NCBI GenBank assembly: GCA_007859835.1
Contig: SJPJ01000001.1
Location: forward strand, 7,579,989 to 7,643,988
DNA: 64,000 bases
Direction: 5' to 3'
Source of the DNA: Novipirellula herctigrandis
GTDB taxonomy: Bacteria > Planctomycetota > Planctomycetia > Pirellulales > Pirellulaceae
Shown here in pieces: positions 30,787 to 41,221 of the stretch. Position 1 is the stretch's first letter; each line of letters begins with the position of its first letter. The notes under the pieces were generated by a model. It was not told the DNA's origin. It saw nothing but the letters and a program-made list of their open reading frames with translations, and ran no database searches. Both the position numbers and the translations under genes were made by a program.

Positions 30787-31110
30787 TCAATTTGCGGCCG
30801 ACAGCTTAAGTCCGGCGAGTGAGATGACCAAGAGAACCAGAAACGTCAGTCGCCATACCGACGTTGACTCACCCAAGAAAACGATTCCGAAGATCGCTGT
30901 CCCTAACGCTCCAATGCCCATCCACACGGGATAGGCTGTTCCAATCGGTATATGTCGAACTGCAATCGAGAGCAGTCCGATGCTGGCGATATACGCAATG
31001 ATGGTCCAAACGCTTGGCCACAGCCTTGTAAAGGCGTCACTGTACTTCAAACCGATCGCCCAGCCGATTTCGAGTAATCCGGCGAACAAAAGAATGATCC
31101 AAACCTTCAC
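30787..31110 (-). CDS. gdx: SMR family transporter, guanidinium exporter type
   Basis: A 107-residue four-helix membrane protein of the small multidrug resistance family. The sequence matches the SugE/Gdx branch rather than Emr[31 protein letters not shown], with the essential Glu at about residue 14, then [17 protein letters not shown] and FLGES. The start is GTG. This branch exports guanidinium in exchange for protons. A guanidine-III riboswitch lies 33 nt upstream (31144-31184) on the same strand, which independently supports the Gdx assignment. The gene follows an ABC exporter operon with a 153-bp gap holding the riboswitch. Confidence 0.9.
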
Positions 31111-31115
31111 GACAA

Positions 31116-31122
31116 CGTACCC
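31116..31122 (-). promoter_or_regulatory. Likely SD region / anti-aptamer element of gdx
   Basis: In the mRNA, GGGUACG at 31122-31116 lies 5-6 nt before the GTG start and overlaps the only SD-like sequence (CUGGGU). It is perfectly complementary to CGUACCC at 31169-31163 inside the aptamer. Pairing of the two would hide the ribosome site and break the aptamer, which suggests translational control. The complementarity is seen; the mechanism is inferred. Confidence 0.55.
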
Positions 31123-31143
31123 AGGGTTCTTGGAAATGGAATA

Positions 31144-31184
31144 GCGTCGTCTTGTCTTAACCGGGTACGGCGCGTCTCGTCCGG
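31144..31184 (-). promoter_or_regulatory. Guanidine-III (ykkC-III) riboswitch aptamer
   Basis: Read on the minus strand from 31184 to 31144, the 41 nt carry the hallmark blocks of the ykkC-III class in order: CCGGACGAG, GCGCCGUACCCGG, AAGACAAGACG and CGC. The P1 helix forms between the first CCGG and the CCGG of ACCCGG. The pseudoknot-like helix GCGCCGU / ACGACGC forms with one A-C mismatch. It is directly upstream of an SMR exporter gene of the Gdx type, the classical target of guanidine riboswitches. It should turn the exporter on when guanidinium accumulates. Confidence 0.88.
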
Positions 31185-31263
31185 ATTGTCAGACGGACTA
31201 TAGATACTTTGTCTTTTCCCCTCAACACCGCTGCTCGCGTACGCCCTCTCAGCTTGCGATGCT

Positions 31264-32382
31264 CTACATCTGTCCGATTGCGATACGGAAACGCGCGTGG
31301 GAGACACCGAAGAAGATTGTTCCGATCAATGCGAGTGCTGCGAATTGTGGCCATACGATTGATAAGTTCGCTCCTCGGTAAAGGATTCCTTGGGCCAGCA
31401 TGACAAAGTGGGTGGTCGGCGCCGTTAGCATGATATGCTGGATTGCTTCCGGCATGCTTTCTCGCGGAGTCAAACCTCCGGATAACATTTGCAGCGGTAT
31501 CAACACTAACATGATCAATAAGCCGAATTGCTGCATCGAGCGCGCGAATGTTCCCATGAAGATGCCCATCGATGTGGTAGCAAACAAATGCATCGCAGCA
31601 CCGCCAAGAAATAGTAATAGCGAGCCTTCGATCGGGACCGCCATCAAGCCCTGTACGACGAAGACTAGCGAAAGTGTGCTTGCGAGCAAAACGACCAACC
31701 CCATGGACCAAACCTTGCTGGACATGATCTCTAAAGGAGTCACCGGCATGGCTAATAGATGCTCGATCGTTCCGCGTTCTCGTTCCCGGATCAACGCAGC
31801 TCCTGTCAGTACGATCGACAACATCGTGATTTGGTCGATCACCTGGATTACAGCGCCGAAATACGTCTTGTTGAGTGTTGGGTTAAATCGTACTCGGTCC
31901 ACTAACTCGACTGGCATCGTGGTCGATTCGCGATACCGCTGAACGAATGTTTGAACCTCATCCGATACAATGGTTTGCACGTAGCTACTACCGGTGAACG
32001 CTTGGCTAACACGAGTCGCGTCGACGTTCAACTGGATCGTCGGTCCGCGACCAGCCAACACGTCTCGTTGAAAATCGGGCGGGATGTCCAGCGCGAACGT
32101 GTCTAGGCCAGAGTCCATCCGCCGGTCCATTTCCGCTCTCGTGATTTGCTTTGGTGGTAGGAAATAGGGTTGCTGGAATGCGTCGATGATTCGCTGAGAC
32201 AACGGTGATTGGTCTTCGTCCACAATCGCGATGGGGGCTTCATTTAGCGTGTCTGGCATCGCAGTAGCCGCTGTGTAAACAGACACTGTGAATGCAAATG
32301 CAATGAGGAATAGCAGAATCGGATCGCGAACCAGACTCCACAGTTCCTTTTTCCCAAGTCGGTAGATGTTTTTCAACCGCAT
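31264..32382 (-). CDS. ABC transporter permease, YhhJ-type
   Basis: A 372-residue ABC-2 type permease, last gene of an exporter operon. The ATG at 32382 has AGGAGG just upstream and directly follows the upstream stop (32386), so translation is coupled. One N-terminal transmembrane helix (about 23-43, LLFLIAFAFTVSVYTAATAMP) is followed by a periplasmic domain of about 130 residues (PIAIVDEDQSPLSQRIIDAF...). Then come five membrane helices (ITMLSIVLTGAALIRERERGTIEHLLAMPVTPLEIM, VVLLASTLSLVFVVQ, LLLFLGGAAMHLFATTSMGIF, LLIMLVLIPLQMLSGG and a C-terminal helix). The ERERGTIEHLL coupling helix is typical of the family. Confidence 0.88.
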   Translation of the reverse strand: MRLKNIYRLGKKELWSLVRDPILLFLIAFAFTVSVYTAATAMPDTLNEAPIAIVDEDQSPLSQRIIDAFQQPYFLPPKQITRAEMDRRMDSGLDTFALDIPPDFQRDVLAGRGPTIQLNVDATRVSQAFTGSSYVQTIVSDEVQTFVQRYRESTTMPVELVDRVRFNPTLNKTYFGAVIQVIDQITMLSIVLTGAALIRERERGTIEHLLAMPVTPLEIMSSKVWSMGLVVLLASTLSLVFVVQGLMAVPIEGSLLLFLGGAAMHLFATTSMGIFMGTFARSMQQFGLLIMLVLIPLQMLSGGLTPRESMPEAIQHIMLTAPTTHFVMLAQGILYRGANLSIVWPQFAALALIGTIFFGVSHARFRIAIGQM

Positions 32383-32385
32383 CAA

Positions 32386-35145
32386 CTATGCCTCCTGCTT
32401 TTTCAGTAGCGTTATACTTAAACTGATCAACACGAGGCCGGCAATCACGAGGGGCACGAAGGCATGGTAGAGATCCGCAAATCCAAGTGCCTTGGAGAAC
32501 GTGCCACGAGAGATGGTCAAGAAGTGTGTGGTAGGGAATACCTGTGAGACGAGTGCCCCAGCGCCTTTGAGGGACGAAACGGGATCGATCATTCCTGAGA
32601 AGGTGGTGGCTGGCAAAATCGTGAGAACTGCAGTGCCGAAGATCGCTGCGATCTGACTGCGCATAAACGTCGAGATCAACAGGCCCATTGCCGTCGCACA
32701 GAAAACGTAGACCAAAGCGGCAACCGCTTCCGTTGCGAAACTGCCTTTCATCGGGACACCAAAGAACCATATTGCCAACATTGTAAGTAACAGAAAATTG
32801 AACATTCCCAATACGATGTACGGAATCTGTTTGCCAAGTAGGAACTCCAAGCGAGTGACGGGCGTTGCGTAAAAATTGATGATCGAACCGAGTTCCTTCT
32901 CGCGTACCACGGCCAATGCCGCCAGCATTGCTGGGATCAACATTAGCAACAGTGGAATCACTGCGGGGACCATTGCCATAATGCTTTTGACGTCAGGGTT
33001 GTATCGATATCGGGTCTCGATCGTCGCGGCAGATGTCGATAAATCCCGTCCGTAGCAGTATTTTGCCTGTGTCGCAAGCCATTTGACGTGCATCCCTTGG
33101 ACGTAACCGCGGATGGTTTCGGCTCGCATCGGCATCGATCCATCGATCCAAACTCCAATTTGAACCTCGTCGCCGCGAGCAACGTTACGAGCCAAGCCGG
33201 GCGGAATCTCGAGTGCCATGCTGATTCTGCCGGCTCGCATTTGTTGGTCGAGTTGGTCGTAGTTGTAGATCGGCGGTTGCTCGATGAAGTATCGTGATCC
33301 CGATAGGTTCAGGGCGTAGTCACGGCTGAGGGTAGTTTGGTCACGATCCAGTACGGCAAACTTCAGATTTTCAACATCCATGGTGATGCCGAAACCCATA
33401 ATGATCAGAAGCAAAACGCTGCCGAGTCCAGCCAAAGTCAGCCGAATCGGATCACGGCTGAGTTCAAGTGATTCGCGGATCACGTAACTCATCATCCTGC
33501 GGAGGCTGAACGAGTGAGATATGCTTCCCATGTGCGTGTCTGCAGGCTGCATCTGCTGTTGAACACTTTCAGGAACACGACGATGCGGTTTCTCGAGCCC
33601 AAGCTGCGAGTTTACTCCACTTTCTAAATAGCCGATGAAGGCGTCCTCCAACGTTTCACTGCCACTCTTCTCAACCAGTGCGGCAGGTGTATCGCTCACC
33701 AATACTCGTCCTGCATGCATCAATGAAATACGATCACAACGCTCTGCTTCGTTCACAAAGTGACTTGAGATGAAAATTGTCACTTTGTCTCGACGTGAAA
33801 GTTCCACCAAGTGTTTCCAAAACGAGTCTCGGGCGACGGGATCGACGCCGGAGGTTGGCTCATCCAAAATGAGAAGTTCCGGTTTGTGAATCAACGCGAC
33901 GGCTAAAGACAATCGCTGGCGTTGCCCGAGTGGCAGCGAGTCCGGCAGTGCGCAAATAATCTCGGTTAGTCCGAATCGGTTTTCCATTTCCTTTACCCGG
34001 TCCGGTATCTCAGACTCAGGAACTTGAAACAGCCGTGCGTGAAGGACTAGGTTTTGGTGAACGCTCAATTCCGAATACAACGAGAACGCTTGTGACATAT
34101 ATCCCACGCGGCGTCGGACATTCAAATCGTTCGCATCAATACTCTGGCCAAATAATGACGCATGGCCGTCACTGACTGGCAATAGCCCAGTCAACATTTT
34201 CATCGTGGTCGTTTTTCCGCAGCCATTCGAACCGAGAAAACCAAAAATTTCCCCTCTCTCAATTCGGAAAGTCACTCCGTCCACTGCGACAAAATCGCCA
34301 AAACGTGTGGTTAGATTCTCTGCCTCAATGGCCACTTCATGATCGTCTCGATCGCGTGGTGGAATTCGCACGTCGACATGACCTCGCCTCTTTTCGTCAG
34401 GTAACAATGCAATGAACGCTTTTTCCAACGATTGCGTGTCAGTTCGTTCAAGTAGTTCTCTCGGCGTTCCCATCGCCAGCACTCGTCCGTCATCCATCGC
34501 GATGAGCGAATCGAATCGAGATGCCTCGTCCATGTAGGCAGTCGCTACGAGGACACTCATGCCGGGACAGTGAGAGCGAATGTCGTCAATCAGTTCCCAG
34601 AACTGGCGCCGGGAAAGTGGATCGACACCTGTTGTCGGTTCGTCCAGAATCAATAAATCGGGATCATGAATCAACGAGCAGCAGAGACTGAGTTTTTGTT
34701 TCATGCCTCCCGAGAGTTTGCCGGCAGACCGATCTGCGAACGCTGTCAAACCAGTGCTATCGAGAAGTCTCGCTATCCGATTTTTTCGTTCCCAGCGACT
34801 CAGGCCAAATAGACGTCCAAAGAATTCGGCATTCTCGGTTACGGATAGCGTTGGGTATAGATTCTTGCCAAGTCCTTGAGGCATGTATGCGATGCGGGGA
34901 CATACTTTACTTCGATGAGCGTGATCCGCTATGTCACCACCGAGCACTTCGATCCGCCCACTTTGGACGCGACGCGTTCCAGCAATAAGTGACAATAGGC
35001 TTGATTTTCCGACACCGTCTGGGCCAATCAGTCCAATCATGCAACTCGCGGGCAATGCAACAGATACCGCATCGAGTGCAAGTGTCTTGCCATAAACTAA
35101 GCTGGCATCTTGGATCTGAACCACATTGTTTTTTGCCTTATTCAT
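32386..35145 (-). CDS. rbbA: Fused double-ATPase ABC transporter / permease, RbbA-like
   Basis: A 919-residue protein with two ABC ATPase domains followed by an ABC-2 permease, the architecture of RbbA (YhiH). ATPase 1 (about 8-235): Walker [10 protein letters not shown], signature LSGGMKQK, Walker [13 protein letters not shown]. ATPase 2 (about 270-505): Walker [10 protein letters not shown], a variant signature [10 protein letters not shown], Walker [13 protein letters not shown]. The permease (about 545-919) has one N-terminal and five C-terminal helices, with the motif [26 protein letters not shown]. It overlaps the HlyD gene by 4 bp (ATGA). With the HlyD protein and YhhJ-type permease it should form an export pump; the substrate is unknown. 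Confidence 0.9.
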
Positions 35146-36206
35146 TTTGGCAACTTGACCTTCAAGTCATCTGGCCATGGGTACTGTTCGCCCAAGCGTA
35201 CGTAAGCCATACCAGGCAGTCCGGTTTTCACTTTTCGGATATGATCATTCAATAAATCGGGATCGATTCTTGCCTTGATTCGGAACATCAACTTTTGGCG
35301 TTCGACCTCCGTTTCCACTGTCTTTGGCGTGAATTGAGCCACATCGGCAACAAATGTGGCTTGTGCTGGGATAACAAATTGTGGGACTGCATCGAGAACC
35401 AAACGGACGTCCGCGCCTAGTGTGACTCGTCCCGCTTGTTCGGTCGGCAGGAAAAATGTCATGTAAACGTCCGACAAATCGACCATGTTCAGAACCGTCC
35501 CGCCAGCACCAAGAACTTCACCTGGTTGTGCAACGCGATACTGGACCCGTCCATCTCGCGGCGACACCAATGTGCTGTCATCGATGTCAGCTTGAATTCG
35601 CTGGATTGTGGATTCTGCCGCCGCGACCGACGCCTCTGCTTCAATCACTTGTGACTTTGCCGCCGTGATCCCCGCTTTTGCGGTTGCTACGTTCGCTTCG
35701 GCGCTACTGACGCCTGCTTTTGCGCTGAACAACGCTGCCATCTTCGTATCAAAATCTTCGACCGACACCGCATTCTCTTGCGAGAGTTCTTCGGCACGTT
35801 TGAAATTCTTCGTAGCGAGTGATAGCTCCGCTTTTCGTTGTGAGACCAGTGCCTCTGCGGCAGTCTCTTGGCACTGCTGTTGCTTTACAATACTGTTGGC
35901 TACGTCAACGGAGTTTTTGGCACGAAGCAGGTTCGCCTTGGCTTCACCGAGTTGAGCGTCGAGGACACGGGTGTCCATGTGTGCGATTTCTTGCCCGGCG
36001 GTTAGGAAGTCACCTTCGTCCACTAACACGTCCACAAGGCGTCCCGGTGTTTTGGTGGCAATATCGATCTCGACCGCCTCGATACGGCCATTGCTACTAG
36101 CGATTCCTTCGGGCATATCCTCTGGTTCAATGTAATGCCACGCATAGTAGCCCAGTGCCGCAATCACGCACAGAATAATCAAAGTCAGCGAATGTCGAGT
36201 GTTCAT
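35142..36206 (-). CDS. HlyD family secretion periplasmic adaptor, YhiI-type
   Basis: A 354-residue membrane fusion protein, first gene of the exporter operon. The N-terminal anchor helix is about 7-27 ([21 protein letters not shown]). A lipoyl-like half ([40 protein letters not shown]) comes next. A long coiled coil spans about 75-215, very rich in Ala/Glu/Lys ([19 protein letters not shown]...). The second lipoyl half is [27 protein letters not shown], then a beta-barrel domain. It would link the inner-membrane ABC parts to an outer-membrane channel not found in this window. Confidence 0.9.
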
Positions 36207-41147: not shown

Positions 41148-41221
41148 CGACGCGGACGGGACTCGAACCCGCAACCTCCGGATCGACAGTCCGGGGCTCT
41201 AACCAATTGAGCTACCGCGCC
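41148..41221 (-). tRNA. tRNA-Asp (anticodon GTC)
   Basis: A 74-nt cloverleaf on the minus strand. The acceptor GGCGCGG pairs with CCGCGTC with one G-U pair. The D arm is GTAGCTCAATTGGTTAGAGC. The anticodon stem CCGGA / TCCGG encloses loop CTGTCGA with anticodon GTC. The T arm contains GGTTCGAGTCC. The discriminator base is G, as expected for Asp. CCA is not encoded. Confidence 0.95.

Follow-up and report, generated by a model that had tools for sequence, protein, structure and literature searches.

Organization of the locus

The window (the whole stretch of 64 kb analysed here, from Novipirellula herctigrandis) carries a guanidine-III riboswitch on its minus strand, and the gene that follows in the same direction, starting 33 nt past the aptamer core, encodes an SMR exporter of the Gdx/SugE type. 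Papers marked (p) are cited from partial text. The features of the locus are:

31264..32385 (-), ABC-2 permease upstream, in the same orientation as the switch, ending 60 bases before the Rfam match
31197..31225 (-), weak sigma-70-like site TTGAGG-17-TATAGT, 9/12 matches
31188..31198 (-), short 5' hairpin GUC-CGUCU-GAC, which the Rfam model includes and the crystallised core lacks
31144..31184 (-), 41-nt guanidine-III aptamer core, an H-type pseudoknot; in Thermobifida fusca numbering 1 = 31184 and 41 = 31144
31181..31184 (-), P1 5' strand CCGG (1-4), pairing with 31164..31161; assigned after Huang 2017 (PMC5696562, p)
31174..31179 (-), third strand C6 G7 A8 G9 A10 C11, with C6 = 31179, G7 = 31178 and A10 = 31175
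31167..31173 (-), P2 5' strand GCGCCGU (12-18), from the Rfam alignment; C15 at 31170, ligand-binding G17 at 31168
31161..31164 (-), P1 3' strand CCGG (21-24), from the sequence and PMC5696562 (p)
31144..31150 (-), P2 3' strand ACGACGC (35-41), from the Rfam alignment; A38 at 31147 opposite C15
30787..31110 (-), SMR exporter of Gdx/SugE type, 107 aa, GUG start, with Pfam, NCBIfam and PDB matches

A search of the whole window with Rfam cmscan matched RF01763 (Guanidine-III) at 31203..31141 (-) over model positions 1-67 of 67, scoring 58.3 bits where the gathering score is 36; the E-value of 1.8e-9 takes in all 64 kb and the 4227 families searched. The blocks CCGGACGAG, GCGCCGU, ACCCGG and AAGACGACGC stand in order on the minus strand, and 31184..31144 (-) is exactly the 41-nt pseudoknot core crystallised from T. 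fusca. The T. fusca sequence is itself among the scan matches (L116) and fits the numbering of PMC5696562 (p). The two cores have five differences in 41 nt, at positions 10, 11, 26, 28 and 38, while C6, G7, G17 and the ACGA core are identical. In the T. fusca crystal, the ligand is contacted by C6 and G7 (Huang 2017, PMC5696562, p), and the linker bases U25, A27 and G29, named in the same source, are kept in the window. The P1 pseudoknot helix (1-4/21-24) is formed by CCGG/CCGG with four standard pairs, and the P2 helix (12-18/35-41) has six out of seven standard pairs, the seventh being C15.A38. The short 5' hairpin may not be transcribed, because it overlaps with the promoter-like site; one such site was found in the region, compared to a mean of 0.4 (sd 0.8) in shuffles. 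The host genome (9.5 Mb) yielded a single guanidine-III match, and searches of it for guanidine-I and guanidine-II found neither. No other Rfam match above the gathering score was present in the 64 kb except one tRNA gene, at 41148-41221 (-).

The SMR protein matches Pfam PF00893 with 95.7 bits (cut-off 23.7). The NCBIfam SugE model scores best among 21 matching SMR models, yet its 118.8 bits stay below the cut-off of 126, and the protein is therefore filed as Gdx type rather than as SugE equivalog. It aligns with Gdx-Clo (PDB 6wk5, E 1.1e-26), PDB 8vxu being matched as well, and its E14, W17, S43, Y60 and W63 are the equivalents of E13, W16, S42, Y59 and W62 in Gdx-Clo. W16 is conserved in Gdx proteins, and the Qac subtype has Gly or Ala instead (PMC7695847, p). 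No Shine-Dalgarno-like word was found in a search before the GUG start; a copy of the same genus (L010) carries GGGAG and an AUG at the same place, so the start at 31110 is supported. The same genus also holds a second SMR copy that is split over two frames (L190, G037:C5:308213-309123; matches 2-62 and 62-105). This copy keeps the leader GGAGCGAUGUC-GUG, and its locus gave no match to a riboswitch family. Elsewhere, 30 of the 98 SMR-matched guanidine-III loci (among the matches listed, L036-L153) have a Met at the position of the Gdx tryptophan W16 with the other site residues intact, and a 31st locus combines this Met with another change. Such SMRs may represent another subtype.

Directly upstream of the switch, a row of genes at 31264-36206 (-) encodes an HlyD-like protein, an RbbA-like double ABC ATPase (NF033858, 1531 bits) and the ABC-2 permease. 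A conserved operon with these ABC genes was considered and rejected: among the loci L002-L153 listed (with flanks of 1.5 kb for L002-L035), neither the permease nor the HlyD-like protein gave a match, and the RbbA-like protein gave three weak ones.

The first-pass annotation had read ykkC-III blocks in the right order on the minus strand, had placed an SMR gene of SugE/Gdx type behind them and had suggested the Rfam covariance model as a check. The blocks are borne out by the strong match to this model, and the guanidine-III class is confirmed by this match along with the ligand-contact residues, the gene context and the relatives described below. The exporter family likewise holds by its Pfam score and Gdx residues, with the score below the SugE equivalog cut-off. 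As judged from sequence, it is well supported that the element is a genuine, ordinary guanidine-III riboswitch before a Gdx-type exporter, for which guanidine binding is predicted. It is a member of an already known class.

The C15.A38 mismatch and the base triple

The single non-standard pair of the second helix lies between C(31170) and A(31147), i.e., C15.A38, where the T. fusca crystal has the triple C15-G38.G10 at positions 15/38/10 (PMC5696562, p). To place it among relatives, contigs were scanned with a pattern in which all P2 bases but 15 and 38 were set; only positions 9, 10, 11, 15 and 38 can therefore be read as free, and the counts are those among the matches listed. We counted 150 of 153 loci, leaving out L012, L030 and L035, which the search expression did not match. 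A few records appear under two loci (e.g., L033 and L040), which makes the distinct aptamers (n = 96) and leaders (n = 134 or 144) the safer counts.

Among the 150 loci listed, the pair 15/38 is CA in 99, CG in 21, UG in 13, AA in 10, UA in 6 and AG in 1. C15.A38 spans at least eight phyla among these matches; the G38 loci listed (n = 35) all belong to Actinomycetota. The A-C mismatch that had been pointed out as worth noting is thus present as described, but it is no oddity, being the commonest state (99 of the 150 loci listed). A mutation or defect of the window copy was considered and rejected, because the same loci, which include three from Legionella, share it.

The mismatch is linked to position 10. 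Among the matches listed, A10 occurs only together with C15.A38 (77 of 77 loci; 42 of 42 distinct aptamers), and this combination is found in Planctomycetota, Actinomycetota, Myxococcota, Pseudomonadota, Verrucomicrobiota, Bdellovibrionota, Acidobacteriota and Thermomicrobiota. It also holds within the 61 distinct actinomycete aptamers listed, where A10 goes with C15.A38 in 20 of 20. Across the 96 distinct aptamers listed, the counts of A10 versus A38 are one-sided (Fisher 4e-9, uncorrected for descent). Mapped onto a tree of 131 SMR rows among the matches listed, the states at position 38 require 5 changes and those at position 10 require 11. Independent A10/A38 pairs number 3-4 on well-supported branches and 5-10 on all branches, with none contrary; these are too few for the correlated evolution to be significant. 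The tie of A10 to C15.A38 points to a base-triple variant, and a coordinated change of the triple 10/15/38 is likely judging from the aptamer comparison. Aptamers with U9, in turn, always carry A15.A38 among the matches listed (9 of 9 loci, 6 distinct; L020, L023, L025, L027, L028, L038, L047, L062 and L093), a pattern that reads as another coordinated change within the triplex.

Tentatively, A10.A38.C15 may be the usual aptamer triple in most lineages, a conserved non-Watson-Crick arrangement (perhaps a protonated A+.C), with the G10.G38-C15 of T. fusca as an Actinomycetota derivative. If true, the mismatch would be a functional part that sets the stability of the aptamer, possibly with pH, against that of the leader. 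The solved structure carries the minority state at one base triple, which is of interest to structure workers.

Leader complementarity and the mode of regulation

According to Huang 2017 (PMC5696562, p), guanidine binding probably exposes the ribosome site, and a 2025 review (PMC12186494, p) describes the same exposure, together with an effect on RNA stability. In the window, two leader segments could take part in such a switch:

31111..31117 (-), proposed sequestor CGUUGUC, abutting the start codon; complements aptamer GACGACG at 31151..31145 with one G-U pair
31116..31128 (-), second competitor AACC(CU)GGGUACG; 11 pairs with aptamer CGUACCCGGUU at 31169..31159

A translational ON switch is the most likely mechanism. 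In the absence of guanidine, CGUUGUC (31117..31111) beside the start codon would pair with aptamer bases, as would AACC..GGGUACG (31128..31116) in the window genome, and this pairing would mask the start region. Binding of guanidinium by G7 and G17 would lock the pseudoknot and the triplex, in which C15.A38 with A10 would stand as a common family variant of the crystal triple C15-G38.G10. The locked fold would then release the leader so that the exporter is made. We consider it quite probable that the riboswitch turns on translation of the Gdx-type guanidinium exporter in this manner, the release of the start region being the inferred step.

The sequestor of the window forms 7 pairs with aptamer positions 34-40 (p 0.035 by energy, 0.075 by length). 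Over the loci listed, and with no account taken of shared descent in any of the leader statistics, 17 of the 32 planctomycete leaders and 32 of all 144 hold a complement of the P2 3' strand that reaches p<0.05 by energy. As controls, the P2 5' strand has such a complement in 2 planctomycete leaders and 6 overall, and the reversed strand in 1 and 7, respectively. By helix length the P2 3' strand gives 9 of 32 and 26 of 144 (controls by energy only). The other 112 of the 144 leaders listed have no significant complement by energy. When 11-nt segments of the aptamer are compared over 135 leaders listed, segment 31-41 has a complement in 32, 3-13 in 21, 9-19 in 13 and 16-26 in 6, versus 8 and 2 for the reversed segments 31-41 and 3-13, respectively. 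As GACGA occurs in both, the leader could target either 4-8 or 34-38, and pairing with either is incompatible with the bound fold. In the genus g19 (L019, L021, L022 and L024), GCGUCU before the start complements the aptamer from position 6 on, and not the P2 3' strand alone (p 0.003-0.033). When the aptamer is taken as a whole, only 4 of 31 planctomycete leaders pair with it beyond the level of shuffles.

Of the 134 distinct leaders among the matches listed, 52 have the trinucleotide GUC immediately ahead of the start, versus 27 of 907 long ORFs from the same loci, for which the first ATG was taken, not always the true start. Start codons were chosen by rule in 147 of 150 loci, and those of L026 and L133 seem too far upstream. 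The T. fusca leader has no GUC before its start. When P2 is forced to form, the region from -12 to +3 is freed in 24 of 32 planctomycete leaders and hidden in 2; this fold comparison leans to the OFF form because the energies of the pseudoknot and the ligand are ignored. In published in-line probing of a relative, carried out by others and reported in Huang 2017, P1 and P2 were paired without guanidine and the third strand alone was mobile (PMC5696562, p), so displacement of P2 is disfavoured, at least in that construct.

For the window itself, the ensemble prediction pairs the P2 3' strand downstream with a probability of only 0.21, and the helix between CGUACCCGGUU and AACC..GGGUACG dominates the predicted minimum-energy fold. 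This second competitor has p 0.08 (5000 shuffles) or 0.11 (300 shuffles) for the whole aptamer and 0.01 for that segment, and it was not seen in the same-genus copy L010; its predicted helix is only suggestive. An excess stability of the whole window leader was considered and rejected (z -0.14; 84 of 200 shuffles at least as stable). The same holds for the idea that the mismatch is kept for pairing of A38 with the sequestor. Of the 147 leaders listed, 61 carry [CU]GU[CU] no more than one base away from the start; opposite A38 these have U in 27, C in 12, G in 7 and A in 6, and opposite G38 they have U in 6, C in 2 and G in 1, with no sign of covariation with A or G at 38.

Other modes of action have to be weighed against this translational reading. 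Were the switch to act mainly on mRNA stability, the ligand-folded pseudoknot would block RNase E as it scans from the 5' end. Such an effect is reported for guanidine-III in the review PMC12186494 (p), citing Richards and Belasco 2021, and an RNA initiated at the weak promoter-like site would begin close to the aptamer. The aptamer complement at the start codon in many leaders is left unexplained by it, however, and we regard it as unlikely to be the main mode, noting that the mRNA-stability and translational mechanisms are compatible. Attenuation of transcription by a leader terminator, described for guanidine-I and guanidine-IV (PMC12186494, p), is highly improbable here, as no terminator-like site was found at 31050..31450 and the leader past the core, of just 33 nt, ends at the start codon.

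It is likewise improbable, though less so than attenuation, that the switch is decaying and its regulation lost. The mismatch, the GUG start and the want of a Shine-Dalgarno-like word (L010 carries GGGAG and AUG in these positions) could be read in that way, as could the broken second SMR copy L190 of this genus, at which no aptamer was found. Nonetheless, the ligand-contact residues are intact, the score of 58.3 ranks about 7th of 30 in the family (range 46.6 to 66), most of the loci listed share the mismatch, and the SMR reading frame is uninterrupted and keeps every key residue. A chance resemblance to the motif has a negligible probability given the E-value of 1.8e-9 over the whole window and 4227 families, plus the gene context. 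Translational activation of the exporter thus remains our preferred reading.

Distribution in planctomycetes and comparison with known systems

Guanidine-III is found in 30 of 199 genomes of the host's family, and a comparison of coordinates places an SMR relative directly downstream in all 30. A phylum-wide sample gave 13 of 392 genomes, eight of which are already in the family count; both searches used stricter filters, so weak switches may be missed. JAHCJI010000013.1, of Phycisphaeraceae, carries the switch as well, and L033 and L040 share the aptamer and the downstream sequence. SMR relatives at E 1e-10 occur in 89 of the 199 family genomes. Out of 40 SMR loci examined that have no guanidine-III, 11 carry guanidine-II instead (L156, L157, L163, L164, L167, L171, L173, L175, L177, L180 and L186). 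A guanidine-II search of all 199 genomes returned the same 11, each directly before an SMR relative (11 of 11), and none of the 199 genomes gave matches to both classes. Different cassettes can occur within a genus: in g37, g45 and g46, some members carry guanidine-II and others guanidine-III. In a tree of 74 SMR segments, the class III loci form one branch (35 with class III and 2 with no switch; support 99/96), and class II and the remaining copies with no switch lie on the far side (few columns, many open forks). As class III falls in one SMR branch, switch and gene have mostly travelled together. None of the papers searched names Planctomycetota for a guanidine riboswitch; a well-studied riboswitch is now placed in a phylum for which they do not name it.

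Compared to guanidine-II (mini-ykkC) in sibling planctomycetes, the window element serves the same gene family in the same place and, by the literature, for the same ligand, but it is another RNA class tied to other SMR branches. Its exporter shares all five site residues with Gdx-Clo/SugE (6wk5), from which guanidinium export is predicted on sequence grounds, and scores just below the cut-off of the SugE equivalog (118.8 versus 126). With the T. fusca aptamer (5NWQ, RF01763), the window shares the 41-nt core, C6/G7/G17, P1 CCGG/CCGG, U25/A27/G29 and the place before an SMR gene. The two differ in that the window has C15.A38 with A10 and C11 where the crystal has C15-G38 with G10 and U11, and in that its leader of 33 nt has no recognised Shine-Dalgarno word and a GUG start. 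The guanidine-III aptamers of Legionella (L046, L066 and L127) are identical in 40 of 41 core bases, A10 and C15.A38 included; they carry U11 where the window has C11, and their leaders differ.
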